In this document: positions 548-4,952 of the stretch, in pieces
Layout of the letters: every line of letters begins with the position of its first letter
How positions within the stretch are numbered: the stretch's first letter is position 1
From: an uncultured Pelagibacteraceae bacterium
GTDB lineage: Bacteria > Pseudomonadota > Alphaproteobacteria > Pelagibacterales > Pelagibacteraceae
Direction: 5' to 3'
Assembly (NCBI GenBank): GCA_902516395.1
Contig: CABXYN010000009.1
Location: 1-47,012, forward strand
Length of the DNA stretch: 47,012 bases
Position numbers and translations under genes: made by a program
Notes under the pieces: model-generated
The model's input: only the letters and a program-made list of their open reading frames with translations
Told to the model about the DNA's origin: nothing
Database searches by the model: none

Positions 548-1231
548 TTAATTTTTCTTATATTTTTGCCACAAGTCTGGTCTTCGGTCGCGTGTTATAG
601 CCTCAGATTGGGATAAACGCCAGTCTTTAATTTTGGCGTGATCACCTGAAATTAGCACATTTGGGACCTTTTTTTCCTCCCAAACTTGAGGTTTTGTGAA
701 TTGCGGATATTCAAGAAGTCCATTCTCAAAACTCTCATCTCTTGAGGAATTAATATTACCTAGAATTCCTGGAATAAATCTTAGAATAGAGTCTGTTACA
801 ACAAAGGCTGCAACTTCACCGCCTGACAATATAAAGTCACCAATGCTAATTTCTTCAATATCTCTACTCTCTAGTATTCTTTCATCTACTCCTTCGAAAT
901 GACCACAAATTAAATTGATTGTTTTTTCATTTGAAAACTCTCTTGCAAGTTTAGAATTAAAAACTTTTCCTCTTGGACTTAAATATAGGGTTTTTTCTTT
1001 AGTCTTGATATTTGCATCTAATGAATTTGCCAAAACATCTGCTTTCATAATCATTCCATTTCCGCCACCATAAGGAGTGTCATCAACAGTTTTATGTTTG
1101 TCTAAAGCATAATCTCTTATATTTACTGTTTCTAAATCCCATTCTTTTCCTTTTGACTTGCCGAATAGGCCTTTGCTCAAATAACCTGGAAAGTATTCAG
1201 GATACAACGTAAATACTCTAGACAAAAACAT
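548..1231 (-). CDS. trmD: tRNA (guanine-N1-)-methyltransferase TrmD
   Basis: TrmD methylates G37 of tRNAs using S-adenosylmethionine, preventing +1 frameshifts; it is a trefoil-knot SPOUT enzyme acting as a dimer. The 227-residue product begins [14 protein letters not shown] and shows the family landmarks [35 protein letters not shown] and EYPQFTKP. A longer in-frame extension to 1345 exists, but it is antisense-free translation of the rpsP repeat tail in another frame, so the start at 1231 is chosen; this leaves 4 bases after the rpsP stop. The usual neighbour rimM is not between rpsP and trmD. Confidence 0.96.
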
Positions 1232-1235
1232 TAAT

Positions 1236-1679
1236 CTATTTAGCCTCTTCCTTTGGTGCCTCTGTTTTAGCTTCTTCCATTGGAGCCTCTGTTTTAGCTT
1301 CTTCTTTTGGTGCTTCTGTTTTAGCCTCCTCTGTTTTAGGAGCATCTACTTTAGCTTCGCCACCCTCTTCAGTTTTCTTTCTATCTTTTTTTGGAATTGC
1401 TTTTTGAGGATTATTACCTTTTGCTGGCATAGGCATAATCTCATTTTCCCCTAGTAATCTTGCAACTCTGGTTGTTGGTTGTGCCCCTTGACCCAGCCAA
1501 TACTTAACTCTCTCAACATCTAATCCCATTCTTTCTTTTTTTTCTCTCGGAATTAGAGGATTAAAAAAACCTAATTTTTCTATAAACCTTCCATCTCTTG
1601 GGAACCTACTATCAGCAACCACTATCTTATATACTGGTCTCTTCTTAGTTCCTCCCATTGATAAACGCATCTTTAACAT
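1236..1679 (-). CDS. rpsP: 30S ribosomal protein S16 with repeat tail
   Basis: S16 is a small-subunit protein needed for 30S assembly. The core (residues 1-80) contains [27 protein letters not shown] and [10 protein letters not shown]. The product is 147 residues, against about 80-90 in many bacteria, because of a Lys/Pro-rich linker and an acidic tail of 9-residue repeats (EAKTEAPKE), the same repeat type as in L19 downstream. The start at 1679 (MLKMRL) is supported by an AGGAG five bases upstream. It lies 12 bases after ffh and 4 bases before trmD. Confidence 0.96.
1239..1319 (-). repeat. 27-bp tandem repeats in rpsP tail
   Basis: Three full in-frame 27-base units (1239-1265, 1266-1292, 1293-1319) plus a degenerate fourth encode the EAKTEAPKE tail of S16. 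The encoded consensus is nearly the same as in the rplS repeats (7-114), but the nucleotide units differ more, for example in the Ala/Val codon. Confidence 0.85.
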
Positions 1680-1691
1680 TTGTTCTCCTAT

Positions 1692-3050
1692 TTATTTTAA
1701 TTGATTAAAAAGTTCTGGTGGTATGCCTTTATCCATCATCCCTTTTGTATTTCCTTTAGACATTTTTTTCATCATTTCTGACATCATCTTAAATTGCTTC
1801 AGCAATTTATTGATAGCGGCTACATCTGTTCCTGAGCCATTAGCAATTCTTTTTTTTCTAGAACCATCAATAATCTTAGGGTTTTCTCGTTCTTTTTTAG
1901 TCATTGATAGTATTACAGCTTCGTTTTGAGTAATTATTTTCTCATCTACTCCAGCTTGATCCATTTGAGATTTAACTTTTGAAACACCTGGTAAAAAGGA
2001 CATTATACCTTCAATACCACCCATTTTTTTCATTTGTTTTAACTGAGTTAAATAATCTTCTAACGAAAACTGACCTTTTTTTAATTTTTCCTCTGTTTTT
2101 TTTAATTTTTCTTCATCTAGATCTTCTGCAGCCTTTTCAACAAGAGAAACAATATCTCCCATACCCAAAATTCTATTAGCAATTCTATCTGGATGAAAGA
2201 CCTCAAAATTTTCTATTTTTTCACCAACTCCTAAAAATTTTATTGGAACATCTGCAACATATTTCATACTTAATGCTGCTCCACCCCTACCATCACCATC
2301 AGATCTTGTAAGAATAATACCAGTAAGATTAACTGTGCTTTTAAATTCTTTTGCTACATTAGCTGCAACTTGTCCGGTAAGGGAATCTGCAACTAGAATT
2401 GTTTCTGATGGATTGATAATACTTTCAATTTGTTTAATTTCACTCATCATCTGTAAATCAATTTGAGTTCTTCCAGCTGTATCAAAGAGAATTACATCTG
2501 CTCCATTAAGGTTAGCAGCACTAATCGCTCTTCTACAAATATCTGCAGGAAGTTGATCTTTGATGACTGGAAGCGTTATTATATTATTTTGCTCACCCAA
2601 AAGCCTTAATTGCTCTTGTGCAGCTGGTCTATAGACATCAAGACTAGCCATCATTACTTTTTTCTTTTTATTAATCTCTAAAAATCTAGCAAGTTTTGCA
2701 GTTGTAGTTGTTTTTCCTGAACCTTGAAGCCCAACAAGCATCATAGGGACCGGAGGTACTGCATTTAATTCTATTTCAGAATTTTTATCGCCTAAAAAAG
2801 AAATTAACTCATCGTTAACAACTTTAACCACCATCTCTCCAGGTGAAGTAGATCTGACGATCTCTTGGCCAAGAGCTTTAGGTTTCACTATATTAATAAA
2901 TTCTTTTACAACTTCTAAAGATACATCAGCCTCTAATAGAGCAAGCCTAATCTCTCTCAAACCCTCATCCACTTGCTTTTCATCAAGCGAAGGCGCCTTT
3001 TTTAAAGAAGAAAATATTTCTTCAAATTTATTTGTTAAATTTTCAAACAT
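1692..3050 (-). CDS. ffh: Signal recognition particle protein Ffh
   Basis: Ffh is the SRP GTPase that binds signal sequences of nascent membrane proteins and hands them to FtsY. The 452-residue protein has the N domain (1-100), G domain with P-loop GLQGSGKT (107-114), DTAGRTQ and TRSDGDGRGG, and a methionine-rich M domain ending in MMSEMMKKMSKG. The frame stays open upstream to 3131, but that part translates a structured leader, so the start MFENLTNKF at 3050 is chosen. It is the first gene of the minus-strand operon and diverges from dapF-ftsY. Confidence 0.97.
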   Translation of the reverse strand: MFENLTNKFEEIFSSLKKAPSLDEKQVDEGLREIRLALLEADVSLEVVKEFINIVKPKALGQEIVRSTSPGEMVVKVVNDELISFLGDKNSEIELNAVPPVPMMLVGLQGSGKTTTTAKLARFLEINKKKKVMMASLDVYRPAAQEQLRLLGEQNNIITLPVIKDQLPADICRRAISAANLNGADVILFDTAGRTQIDLQMMSEIKQIESIINPSETILVADSLTGQVAANVAKEFKSTVNLTGIILTRSDGDGRGGAALSMKYVADVPIKFLGVGEKIENFEVFHPDRIANRILGMGDIVSLVEKAAEDLDEEKLKKTEEKLKKGQFSLEDYLTQLKQMKKMGGIEGIMSFLPGVSKVKSQMDQAGVDEKIITQNEAVILSMTKKERENPKIIDGSRKKRIANGSGTDVAAINKLLKQFKMMSEMMKKMSKGNTKGMMDKGIPPELFNQLK

Positions 3051-3066
3051 AATCACATCCAGCAAG

Positions 3067-3159
3067 TATCGCACCAGTGGGCGAACTCTCGCTGACTGGT
3101 GTCGATCTCTTTGTTGCCAAAGACACCGCAAATTGCTGTATTTTGCGGAAACGGCGATA
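3067..3159 (-). ncRNA. Structured RNA in the ffh leader
   Basis: This segment is strikingly GC-richer than its surroundings and folds into a closed multi-branch structure. An outer stem pairs 3154-3159 with 3067-3072 (TATCGC/GCGATA). Inside are three arms: 3142-3148 with 3126-3132 (CCGCAAA/TTTGCGG); 3122-3126 with 3099-3103 (GTGTC/GACAC) capped by TTTG-GCAA-CAAA, a GNRA loop on the minus strand; and 3095-3100 with 3073-3078 (ACCAGT/ACTGGT) containing GCGA/TCGC. Neighbouring stems share one or two bases. It ends about 17 bases before the ffh ATG. The SRP RNA signature (GGUCAGG...GGAAGGAAGCAGCC) is absent, so it is not 4.5S RNA. I recall an 'ffh' RNA motif proposed from comparative work in Pelagibacter-like genomes; this may be that motif. 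Confidence 0.75.
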
Positions 3160-3160
3160 A

Positions 3161-3170
3161 ACTATAATAG
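3161..3170. promoter_or_regulatory. Back-to-back -10 elements, ffh and dapF
   Basis: The sequence ACTATAATAG contains a perfect TATAAT on the plus strand (3163-3168, for dapF) and TATTAT on the minus strand (3169-3164, for the ffh leader RNA). Minus-strand initiation about 7 bases downstream would start the transcript almost exactly at the first base of the structured RNA. Neither side has a convincing -35 at 17 bp; a minus-strand TTGACA at 3186-3181 is spaced too closely (11 bp). Confidence 0.45.
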
Positions 3171-3210
3171 AGGTTCAAAATGTCAATAAATAAGTTAAAT
3201 ACTGAAGTAT

Positions 3211-4035
3211 ATGGAATTTAAAGCTTTTAAAATGGATGGCCTTGGCAATGATTTTGTAATTATTGACCAAAGACAAAAAAATATAGAATTAAGCAAAGAC
3301 CAAATTGTTAAGATTTGTGATAGAGATTTTGTTGGCTGTGACCAACTAATCTATATTAACAAAAGTAATAATACTGATGCTGAACTAGTATTTTATAATT
3401 CTGATGGCTCTGGGTCAGATGCATGTGGAAATGGCACAAGATGTGTTGCGTACTTACTATCAAAAGAAAAAAACAAAAAAAGTATAAACCTTCAAGTAGC
3501 ATCAAAACAGTTAAATTCAAACCTACTTGATGATGGTCAAGTTGAAACAATAATTGGCTTACCAAAAACTAATTGGAAAGAAATTCCTTTATCTGAAAAT
3601 CTAGATACCAAAAATTTAGGTATAAGTATAAGAGATGAAAACAACCAAGAAATATCTGGTGGTATTGCTGTAAATGTAGGTAACCCTCATACTATTTTCT
3701 TTGTTAATGAAATAGAAAATTTTAATATAGAGAAAATTGGACCTGAGATTGAAAATCATGAATTATTTCCAGAAAAATGCAATTTAACACTCGCACAAAA
3801 AATAAATAAAAATTATTATAAAGTTAAAGTTTGGGAAAGAGGTGCAGGCTTAACAAAAGCATGTGGAACCGCTGCTTGTGCAACAGCAGTAGCAGCAAAT
3901 TTAGAAAATTTAGAAAATTCTAGAACTGAAATTGAATTTAGTTTAGGAAAATTAGTAATTTATATTGACGAAAATCAAAAAATTCATATGAAAGGTCCAG
4001 TGTCTAGTATCAAAGAAATAGACATAAATATTTAA
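3211..4035 (+). CDS. dapF: Diaminopimelate epimerase DapF
   Basis: DapF converts LL- to meso-diaminopimelate for lysine and peptidoglycan synthesis by a two-cysteine proton transfer. Both catalytic cysteines are visible: C72 in DACGNGTRC and C218 in ACGTAACA. The start MEFKAFKMDGLGNDFV and the length of 274 residues are typical. The stop overlaps the ftsY start by one base (TAATG), so the two are translationally coupled. The gene for the MtaB-type methylthiotransferase that often sits between dapF and ftsY in alphaproteobacteria is absent here. Confidence 0.97.
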   Translation: MEFKAFKMDGLGNDFVIIDQRQKNIELSKDQIVKICDRDFVGCDQLIYINKSNNTDAELVFYNSDGSGSDACGNGTRCVAYLLSKEKNKKSINLQVASKQLNSNLLDDGQVETIIGLPKTNWKEIPLSENLDTKNLGISIRDENNQEISGGIAVNVGNPHTIFFVNEIENFNIEKIGPEIENHELFPEKCNLTLAQKINKNYYKVKVWERGAGLTKACGTAACATAVAANLENLENSRTEIEFSLGKLVIYIDENQKIHMKGPVSSIKEIDINI

Positions 4036-4952
4036 TGGGTATTTTTGAAAAGTTCAAATTAGGTTTTAACAAAAGTGCTGACAGTATTTCCTCTGGACTT
4101 AGAGAAATAATTGTAAAAAAAGAAATTGATGATGAAACATTAAATAAGATTGAAGAATTTTTGATTAGTTCTGATGTTGGTATTGATGCCTCATCTGAAA
4201 TAAAAAGAATTATCTCTCAAAAAAAAATAGATCCAAAAAAAAATGCAGTTGAGGAAATAAATTTAATTCTTAAGGAGTATATCCTGGAATTGATGATACC
4301 TTTGGAAAGAAAAGATTTTTTTGAAAAAAAAGAAAATATAAATGTAACATTAGTATCTGGTGTGAACGGAGTAGGTAAAACTACGACTATAGGAAAAATT
4401 GGTAAAATATTTAAAGATAACGGCTCAGAAGTAATATTTTCTGCTTGCGATACCTTTAGGGCAGCAGCTATTGATCAGCTAGAATCTTGGTCTGATAAAG
4501 TTGGCGCAACAATTATTAAATCAAATCCAGGATCTGACCCAGCTTCAGTTGCGTATAAAGCGATAGAATACGCAAAAAACAACAATATTAGTCAGGTACT
4601 TATTGATACAGCTGGCAGATTACAAAATAAGAAAAATTTGATGGATGAATTTAAAAAAATTGCAAATGTCATTAAAAAGACAGATGAAAGCGCGCCACAG
4701 GATGTAATCTTAGTTTTAGATGCAACATCAGGGCAAAATATAATAAATCAATTAGAAGAATTTGATAAAATTATTAAAATCACAGGTCTAATTATGACCA
4801 AACTTGATGGAACAGCTAAAGGTGGAGTATTAATTGCTATCTCAAAAAAATATAAAGTACCAATTATTGGATTAGGTCTTGGTGAAAAAATTGATGATTT
4901 ACAAATATTTAATGCAGAGCAATTTGCAGATGCTTTTACTCAATTTAATTGA
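4035..4952 (+). CDS. ftsY: Signal recognition particle receptor FtsY
   Basis: FtsY is the membrane-associated GTPase receptor for SRP-ribosome complexes. The P-loop GVNGVGKT (109-116), DTAGRLQ and TKLDGTAKGG are present. At 305 residues it is a short form: the NG domain is complete, while the long acidic N-terminal A domain of enteric FtsY is missing, as is common in alphaproteobacteria. It forms an operon with dapF. Its 3' end overlaps by 8 bases the end of a convergent gene. Confidence 0.97.
   Translation: MGIFEKFKLGFNKSADSISSGLREIIVKKEIDDETLNKIEEFLISSDVGIDASSEIKRIISQKKIDPKKNAVEEINLILKEYILELMIPLERKDFFEKKENINVTLVSGVNGVGKTTTIGKIGKIFKDNGSEVIFSACDTFRAAAIDQLESWSDKVGATIIKSNPGSDPASVAYKAIEYAKNNNISQVLIDTAGRLQNKKNLMDEFKKIANVIKKTDESAPQDVILVLDATSGQNIINQLEEFDKIIKITGLIMTKLDGTAKGGVLIAISKKYKVPIIGLGLGEKIDDLQIFNAEQFADAFTQFN

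Follow-up and report, generated by a model that had tools for sequence, protein, structure and literature searches.

Retention of the ffh RNA motif (RF01793) in an alphaproteobacterial family with apparent loss of the signal recognition particle, and evidence that the RNA is larger than its model

RESULTS

The DNA analyzed here (the window) is a 47,012-nucleotide contig, C9, from a 1.07-Mb genome of an uncultured member of the Pelagibacteraceae; the genome is assembled in 47 contigs, is 77% complete, and is of the SAR11 type, as judged from its gene order and its RNA family. On the minus strand, ffh occupies positions 1692 to 3050, with its ATG at 3050 to 3048 and a TIGR00959 match of 568.7 bits at 1764 to 3047. 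The next gene in line is rpsP, which encodes ribosomal protein S16 (1236 to 1679, minus strand; PF00886, 97.2 bits at 1473 to 1655). The divergent neighbor on the plus strand (3211 to 4035) is an ORF that we take to be dapF from the gene order of Pelagibacter ubique and from recognition of its sequence. Directly 3′ of dapF, within 3211 to 4952 of the plus strand, an ORF has an FtsY-type match (the second TIGR00959 match, at 4107 to 4931). In SAR11, dapF is flanked by both signal recognition particle (SRP) GTPase genes; in the PS1-type family described below, dapF and the RNA are kept and neither GTPase was seen. The ORF 3′ of rpsP (548 to 1345, minus strand) presumably resembles TrmD, and the ORF list of the window has no separate rimM ORF between the two.

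The first-pass annotation of this DNA described a compact minus-strand RNA in the leader of ffh, with an outer stem enclosing three hairpins, one of them with a GCAA loop. The minus strand of positions 3051 to 3180 has a folding energy of −38.2 kcal/mol, compared to −29.0 kcal/mol (standard deviation, 3.4) for dinucleotide shuffles (z = −2.7), and 1 of 200 shuffles matched it. The fold thus withstood this comparison, and its location upstream of ffh was likewise borne out, with the Rfam match described below ending at 3064. The sequence accommodates the three hairpins, including the one with the GCAA loop, but the outer stem is not conserved. Of 85 unique Pelagibacteraceae sequences, three (those of the window, L023, and L064) can form all six pairs of that stem, UAUCGC/GCGAUA (3159 to 3154 with 3072 to 3067). 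On average, 2.73 of the 6 pairs form over the 85 sequences, which is no gain over controls in which the strands were slid (1.98 to 3.16). We therefore rejected the outer stem as a conserved feature. A GNRA loop caps the second hairpin in 60 of the 85 sequences and is replaced by a different loop in 25; hence, it is the usual cap rather than a fixed one, and we dropped the idea that the loop is a docking site.

A search with Rfam covariance models identified RF01793 (“ffh”) at positions 3064 to 3116 of the minus strand, with a score of 58.4 bits (gathering score, 35; E = 1.1e-8) and over the full length of the model (1 to 52 of 52). This was the sole Rfam family over its cutoff in the whole window and the sole RF01793 match in the assembly. 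The locus has a bulged hairpin with a covarying stem, a C opposite a C, and ffh downstream, and the element is almost certainly the RF01793 ffh RNA. The ffh-associated motif of Pelagibacter-like genomes that the first-pass annotation had mentioned therefore exists and is this family (PMC2704228). Its reading that the element lacks the SRP RNA signature was also correct: at an E value of ≤5, nothing but RF01793 was found in 2980 to 3260, and RF00169 (bacterial small SRP RNA) had no match there. The SRP RNA match of this genome lies on another contig (C36:2413-2508; 40.8 bits, with a cutoff of 40), and the likeness of the window element to RF00169 is one of functional neighborhood only.

The motif was reported by Meyer et al. 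in 2009 from the dapF-ffh gap of P. ubique, with more than 600 metagenomic copies and occurrences in several alphaproteobacterial orders (PMC2704228). The published drawing is one bulged hairpin in which two cytosines are nearly invariant; in the passages on ffh, no mechanism is given, the authors see no resemblance to the portion of 4.5S RNA that binds Ffh, and regulation of ffh is considered possible (PMC2704228). The RNA of the window has the same hairpin at the same site before ffh as the published motif, in SAR11 and in other Alphaproteobacteria. Transcripts have also been listed. Sinorhizobium meliloti sm5, from the dapF-ffh gap, is a predicted transcript with a Rho-independent terminator that was detected by microarray and marked “not done” for Northern analysis (PMC2573895); it lies in the same gap as the window RNA, is listed there as a candidate independent small RNA (sRNA), and was compared with ours by position alone. 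An “ffH leader RNA” is among the expressed sRNAs of Bartonella bacilliformis (PMC7717549). Transcript MH_s5 of Mesorhizobium huakuii is annotated as RF01793 and assigned to an intergenic region labeled Pb, with no ffh named in its table row (PMC5596092); Pb is apparently a plasmid, and MH_s5 is a possible copy of RF01793 away from the ffh operon. Among the matches listed in a search of the open-license literature, there was no report of a regulator of RF01793 RNA, which is a weak negative. The RF01793 RNA itself is already known; what is new here is the truncation of its model, the competing helices, and an apparently SRP-less family that keeps the RNA.

RF01793 was matched at an E value of ≤0.001 in 128 of 147 Pelagibacteraceae genomes and in 75 of 289 genomes of the class, 59 of the 75 being over the cutoff. 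Each genome had one match, except for G485, which had two, on two contigs. We analyzed loci for 92 of the 128 Pelagibacteraceae matches, 47 of the 72 class matches outside that family, 72 of the 82 matches in family f5, and 14 of the 14 in the PS1-type family, together with 54 additional genomes. The RNA is followed by ffh in all 92 Pelagibacteraceae loci, in 64 of 72 f5 loci (the other 8 had no ffh within a short flank), and in 44 of the 47 nonfamily loci; two of the remaining three precede rpsP, and one is at a contig edge. The gene behind the RNA, which is ffh in the published motif, can be rpsP. The ffh AUG lies 13 to 24 nucleotides (nt) behind the RF01793 match in the Pelagibacteraceae, and outside SAR11, the RNA-to-start-codon distance ranges from 9 to 285 nt. 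Of the 75 class genomes that carry the RNA, 71 have an S16 match (PF00886), which is not always nearby: in G396, for example, it follows ffh at ~3.7 kb, and in G153 and G317, the S16 and RNA matches fall on different contigs.

The published hairpin corresponds to the last of three, HP3 (3072 to 3101, minus strand; CACCAGU-CA-GCGA-GAGU-UCGC-CC-ACUGGUG, with a C·C mismatch). All covariation E values given here come from our own imitation of R-scape (FastTree tree, Fitch states, and substitutions re-placed per branch), not from R-scape itself. Five HP3 pairs covaried at an E value of <0.05 among 54 Rfam-found nonfamily sequences, with the pair beside the mismatch at 0.075, and the same five pairs were obtained from a biased set of 106 sequences. 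The Rfam model rewards HP3 pairing, so that counts for HP3 at Rfam-found loci lean that way; the 5′ half of the RNA played no part in the choice of loci. Using a finder that does not require C·C, we found the mismatch in 62 of 62 Pelagibacteraceae, 58 of 58 f5, 9 of 9 PS1-type, and 34 of 42 other unique sequences. For seven of the remaining eight, C·C is one position further in, and the eighth (L124) is a truncated match. An AUCG/CGAU extension of HP3 that came from a covariation-weighted fold was rejected, since the alignment read by eye gave no support.

The second hairpin, HP2 (3103 to 3128, minus strand; CGGU-G-UCUUUG/CAAAGA-G-AUCG around the GCAA loop), has its 5′ strand beyond the Rfam model. 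The 85 unique Pelagibacteraceae sequences were aligned without structure; in that alignment, the top covarying column pairs were two pairs of HP2 (E = 0.04 over all pairs). Pairs in HP3, HP2, and the HP1/HP2 overlap followed at E values of 1.6 and above, which are not significant alone. When family f5 was aligned separately (72 sequences), an HP2 pair again ranked first (E = 0.025), followed by pairs in HP2 (0.14) and HP3 (0.17). Covariation among homologues was the test by which the first-pass annotation would have its structure judged. HP2 and HP3 covary, and the structured ffh leader that it proposed stands as an RF01793 leader with these hairpins and without the outer stem.

Compared with shuffles, HP2 was above the 95th percentile in 60 of 61 unique Pelagibacteraceae sequences, 19 of 97 sequences from other alphaproteobacteria, and 0 of 12 PS1-type sequences. 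Support for HP2 is thus softer beyond SAR11 and f5. The PS1-type loci have paired changes in HP2 (CGGUUCA/UGAAUCG, CAGUCC/GGAUUG, and CAAUCC/GGAUUG). The foot of HP2 is kept as YGGU with AUCR, and the conserved GAUCG of the Rfam model is this foot. Whereas the RF01793 consensus draws its first 15 positions as unpaired, the first 14 are here the 3′ side of HP2, an assignment that we make because HP2 covaries in both the Pelagibacteraceae and f5. MAFFT failed to align the variable-length HP2 loop across nonfamily sequences, and HP2 is for that reason without a covariation test across the Alphaproteobacteria. In L115 to L118, from SAR11-family genus g4, the usual G·G mismatch of HP2 is replaced by a G·U pair, and the helix is unbroken (L115, CGGUGCUCUUG/CAAGAGUGUCG).

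The first hairpin, HP1 (3126 to 3148, minus strand; CCGCAAA/UUUGCGG), lies wholly beyond the Rfam model, and we compared its stem score to those of shuffles. At the register in which HP1 overlaps HP2, with the 3′ strand of HP1 ending two bases within HP2, the score was 7.44 versus 3.61 in mononucleotide shuffles for 91 Pelagibacteraceae loci and 4.79 versus 3.66 (standard deviation, 1.0) for 32 loci from other alphaproteobacteria. Scores of ≥4, which many shuffles also reach, were obtained for 89 of 92 Pelagibacteraceae, 18 of 45 other, and 0 of 14 PS1-type loci. The published motif is one hairpin; here, comparison across loci shows predicted HP2 and HP3 side by side, preceded by HP1 in SAR11 and in several further groups. 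We concluded that the RNA is very probably larger than the Rfam model, which is cut short at its 5′ side.

Upstream of the RNA, the minus strand has a −35 element, TTGACA, at 3181 to 3186 and a −10-like sequence, TATAGT, at 3161 to 3166; bases similar to the latter recur in the Pelagibacteraceae alignment. Among loci for which 140 nt ahead of HP3 are available, TTGAC is present in that stretch in 92 of 92 Pelagibacteraceae loci (12.0 expected from dinucleotide shuffling), 13 of 13 PS1-type loci (2.4 expected), and 77 of 99 other alphaproteobacterial loci (11.5 expected). The median distance from TTGAC to HP3 is 78 to 89 nt. Given this conserved −35 site, the transcript should begin ~50 nt before HP3, at HP1, and in the window it probably starts near 3155 (3153 to 3157).

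The 3′ end of HP1 overlaps the 5′ end of HP2 by three bases, a CGG at 3126 to 3128 (minus strand) that both helices claim, so HP1 and the foot of HP2 are mutually exclusive. SAR11 has the overlap, as do families including f4, f5, and f23, and it was seen in 0 of 14 PS1-type loci; the HP1 stem score peaks at the overlap register both in the Pelagibacteraceae and in other alphaproteobacteria. Alignment column 59 has column 41 as its partner in HP1 and column 84 as its partner in HP2. On two branches, all three columns switch in concert between G-C-G and A-U-A; one of these branches is a single species (L099) among unchanged relatives. One or two of the columns are altered on three further branches. 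The E values of the overlap pairs (16 for 41-59 and 5 for 59-84) are not significant alone, and in f5, the shared bases are nearly invariant and hence uninformative. Covariation at the overlap is therefore suggestive only. With one fold enforced, the computed energies for the window were −37.9 kcal/mol (HP1) and −37.1 kcal/mol (HP2), a gap of 0.8. The HP1 fold was also the lower of the two in L099 (−27.8 and −26.8 kcal/mol), L040 (−58.8 and −56.0), and L039 (−48.8 and −44.9). In L047, the free minimum (−41.1 kcal/mol) has an extended HP2 plus a closing helix over the Shine-Dalgarno (SD) region. We consider bistability of the RNA in the cell less likely than not, an estimate that we lowered slightly in view of the overlap E values.

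A GGA at 3058 to 3060 (minus strand), upstream of the ffh AUG, is a possible SD core. The stretch between HP3 and the AUG has GGA in 63 of 92 Pelagibacteraceae loci, GGG in 7, GG in 2, and none of these in 20. Pairing of the 5′ end of the RNA with the SD region (P1) beat swaps between 14 genera (P = 0.0003); within genera, the P value was 0.33. P1 gained nothing in other alphaproteobacteria (z = −0.24) and nothing clear in the PS1-type family (P = 0.11), and a fixed-register test, whose register was flawed, gave a P value of 0.93. P1 is thus a possibility for SAR11 only, with support at the level of genera. Because the RNA-to-start distance has so wide a span (9 to 285 nt), one SD mechanism cannot serve all lineages.

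Among the 75 RNA-bearing genomes of the class, 72 had a match to an Ffh model, which also detects FtsY. The three others all belong to one family, f50 (the PS1-type family), and S16 was found in each. An SRP54 (Ffh/FtsY) domain over the Pfam cutoff was present in 0 of 18 f50 genomes and in 14 of 14 controls. The sole f50 trace of SRP54 (L154, G435:C4:22967-23089) scored 20.5 bits, below the cutoff of 22.7, over profile positions 3 to 43 of 196, and is perhaps another NTPase. SRP RNA at an E value of ≤0.1 was found in 0 of 18 f50 genomes and in 12 of 14 controls; that control rate, and the narrow margin of the SAR11 match itself (40.8 versus 40), make this search the weaker half of the loss claim. 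SecY was found in 14 of the 18 genomes, including all 6 of those that are more complete. We concluded that f50 (e.g., genomes G195, G319, G414, G433, G439, and G447; loci L141 to L153 and L155 to L159) has apparently lost Ffh, FtsY, and SRP RNA while keeping SecY.

The RNA is kept in 14 of the 18 f50 genomes. Directly behind it is rpsP in 14 of 14 loci, and divergent dapF lies before it in 13 of 14; in the exception, L147, only 106 bases precede the match. Five named records whose S16 is 86 to 93% identical show the same order, the RNA followed by rpsP; ffh is absent from the available flank in each, and dapF was seen in four of the five. Four are labeled OCS116 cluster or PS1 clade and one Hyphomicrobiales, and from these S16 matches, we infer that f50 is a PS1/OCS116-type clade. 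Compensatory variation persists in the stems, and the RNA therefore seems to be maintained rather than a relic. SRP has been called conserved in all living organisms (PMC7844537), and one paper lists a signal recognition particle protein that Pelagibacter has and Rickettsiales lack (PMC3264578). Among the matches listed in the open-license literature, none reports that the PS1 clade has lost SRP, a weak negative. Apparent loss of SRP in a marine alphaproteobacterial family is of interest by itself.

DISCUSSION

The comparisons described here give a fuller architecture to an orphan RNA of 2009 that was drawn as one hairpin and place a sharp constraint on its function. We consider it likely that the ffh leader RNA acts in cis, as a structure with which the ffh-rpsP message begins. 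The explanation that we favor overall, with somewhat less assurance, is a cis-acting leader with an HP1/HP2 switch and an effector outside SRP. HP3 together with HP2 would form the docking site, and binding of the effector would shift the balance between HP1 and HP2. In SAR11, the alternative fold would free a UUCC at the 5′ end. Pairing of this UUCC with the GGA(A/G) that precedes the ffh AUG is possible in some genera, where the switch would then act on translation. Since the PS1/OCS116-type family keeps the RNA without Ffh or SRP RNA, the effector is presumably neither of these.

In the window and in all 14 PS1-type loci, the S16 gene is downstream of the RNA and codirectional with it. Because rpsP follows ffh, or follows the RNA directly in the PS1-type family, S16 is our best candidate for the effector, although a doubtful one. 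Control in cis with S16 is favored because the RNA is tied to its locus and rpsP is the gene remaining there. Autogenous ribosomal-protein leaders are a known class, and the ffh leader shares with them a structured leader before a ribosomal-protein gene, with S16 here a candidate from gene order. We know of no Rfam leader for S16. The likeness of the ffh leader to a riboswitch consists of two competing computed folds. The full proposal, that RF01793 is a bistable leader by which S16 controls its own operon in Alphaproteobacteria and that it stayed on rpsP after SRP was lost in the PS1/OCS116-type family, is slightly less probable than the candidacy of S16 itself. If true, the S16 leader would be the missing regulator of the rpsP operon, for which a 2024 review reports that no regulation is known (PMC10931766), and the family would be a case of natural SRP loss in marine bacteria. 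Retention of the RNA in a family without detectable SRP moves the focus of the search from SRP sensing to the rpsP operon.

The strongest rival is a released sRNA: a strong promoter and HP3 would yield an RNA of 90 to 120 nt that ends before ffh, or is cut from the message, and acts elsewhere. The RNA has a conserved promoter-like site of its own and outlives the loss of ffh in the PS1-type family. In the 12 nt after HP3, the U fraction is 0.49, versus 0.30 over 68 nt from the same point, in 41 sequences from other alphaproteobacteria, and 0.48 versus 0.30 in 11 PS1-type sequences. The array-detected sm5 prediction (PMC2573895), the expressed Bartonella “ffH leader RNA” (PMC7717549), and the RF01793-annotated Mesorhizobium transcript from region Pb, whose table row names no ffh (PMC5596092), also fit a separate transcript. 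However, the RNA is in line with an adjoining ffh or rpsP in 92 of 92 Pelagibacteraceae, 46 of 47 nonfamily, 14 of 14 PS1-type, and 64 of 72 f5 loci, the rest being without flank; several other loci lack a U run; and in the Pelagibacteraceae, the U fraction behind HP3 is 0.43 versus 0.38 downstream, with the ffh AUG only 13 to 24 nt behind the match. We regard release as an sRNA as unlikely, although it comes closest to the cis-acting leader.

HP3 could instead be the intrinsic terminator of a transcription attenuator, governed by HP1/HP2 exchange or by polymerase pausing and tuning the operon to growth rate. Competing helices do lie upstream of HP3, and several groups have a U-rich stretch behind it, but this run is weak or absent in SAR11, and we found no conserved antiterminator that would break HP3. 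The lone candidate in the Pelagibacteraceae, a GGUG/CACC pairing seen by eye in the window, gained no support, its GGUG strand being nearly invariant in the alignment as read by eye. Attenuation of this kind is improbable, more so than release of an sRNA.

The first-pass annotation had suggested that the leader senses the level of Ffh or SRP RNA, and in nearly all loci that we read, the RNA does precede ffh. That suggestion is weakened by f50, where 14 of 18 genomes keep the RNA and where a sensor would be without an object, since neither an Ffh/FtsY domain over the cutoff nor SRP RNA was found in any of the 18. The authors of the original description also saw no resemblance to the portion of 4.5S RNA that Ffh binds (PMC2704228). 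Sensing of Ffh or SRP is unlikely in the PS1/OCS116-type family; this argument covers f50, and lineages that still have SRP lie outside it. For the RNA as a whole, we give such a sensor little credence. A passive 5′ cap, that is, a stable leader that shields the message from decay with no ligand or switch, is equally improbable: a stable fold at the 5′ end with no known ligand would suit it, but the constant C·C mismatch and the kept YGGU/AUCR foot exceed the needs of stability.

Two minor observations concern the RNA and S16. HP3 may resemble stretches of 16S rRNA, and this possible resemblance has no part in the argument. The C-terminal tail of S16 is long, repetitive, and rich in Ala, Pro, Glu, or Gln in three of the four proteins examined, these three being from f50 (L145, L148, and L152), and L055 lacks such a tail.
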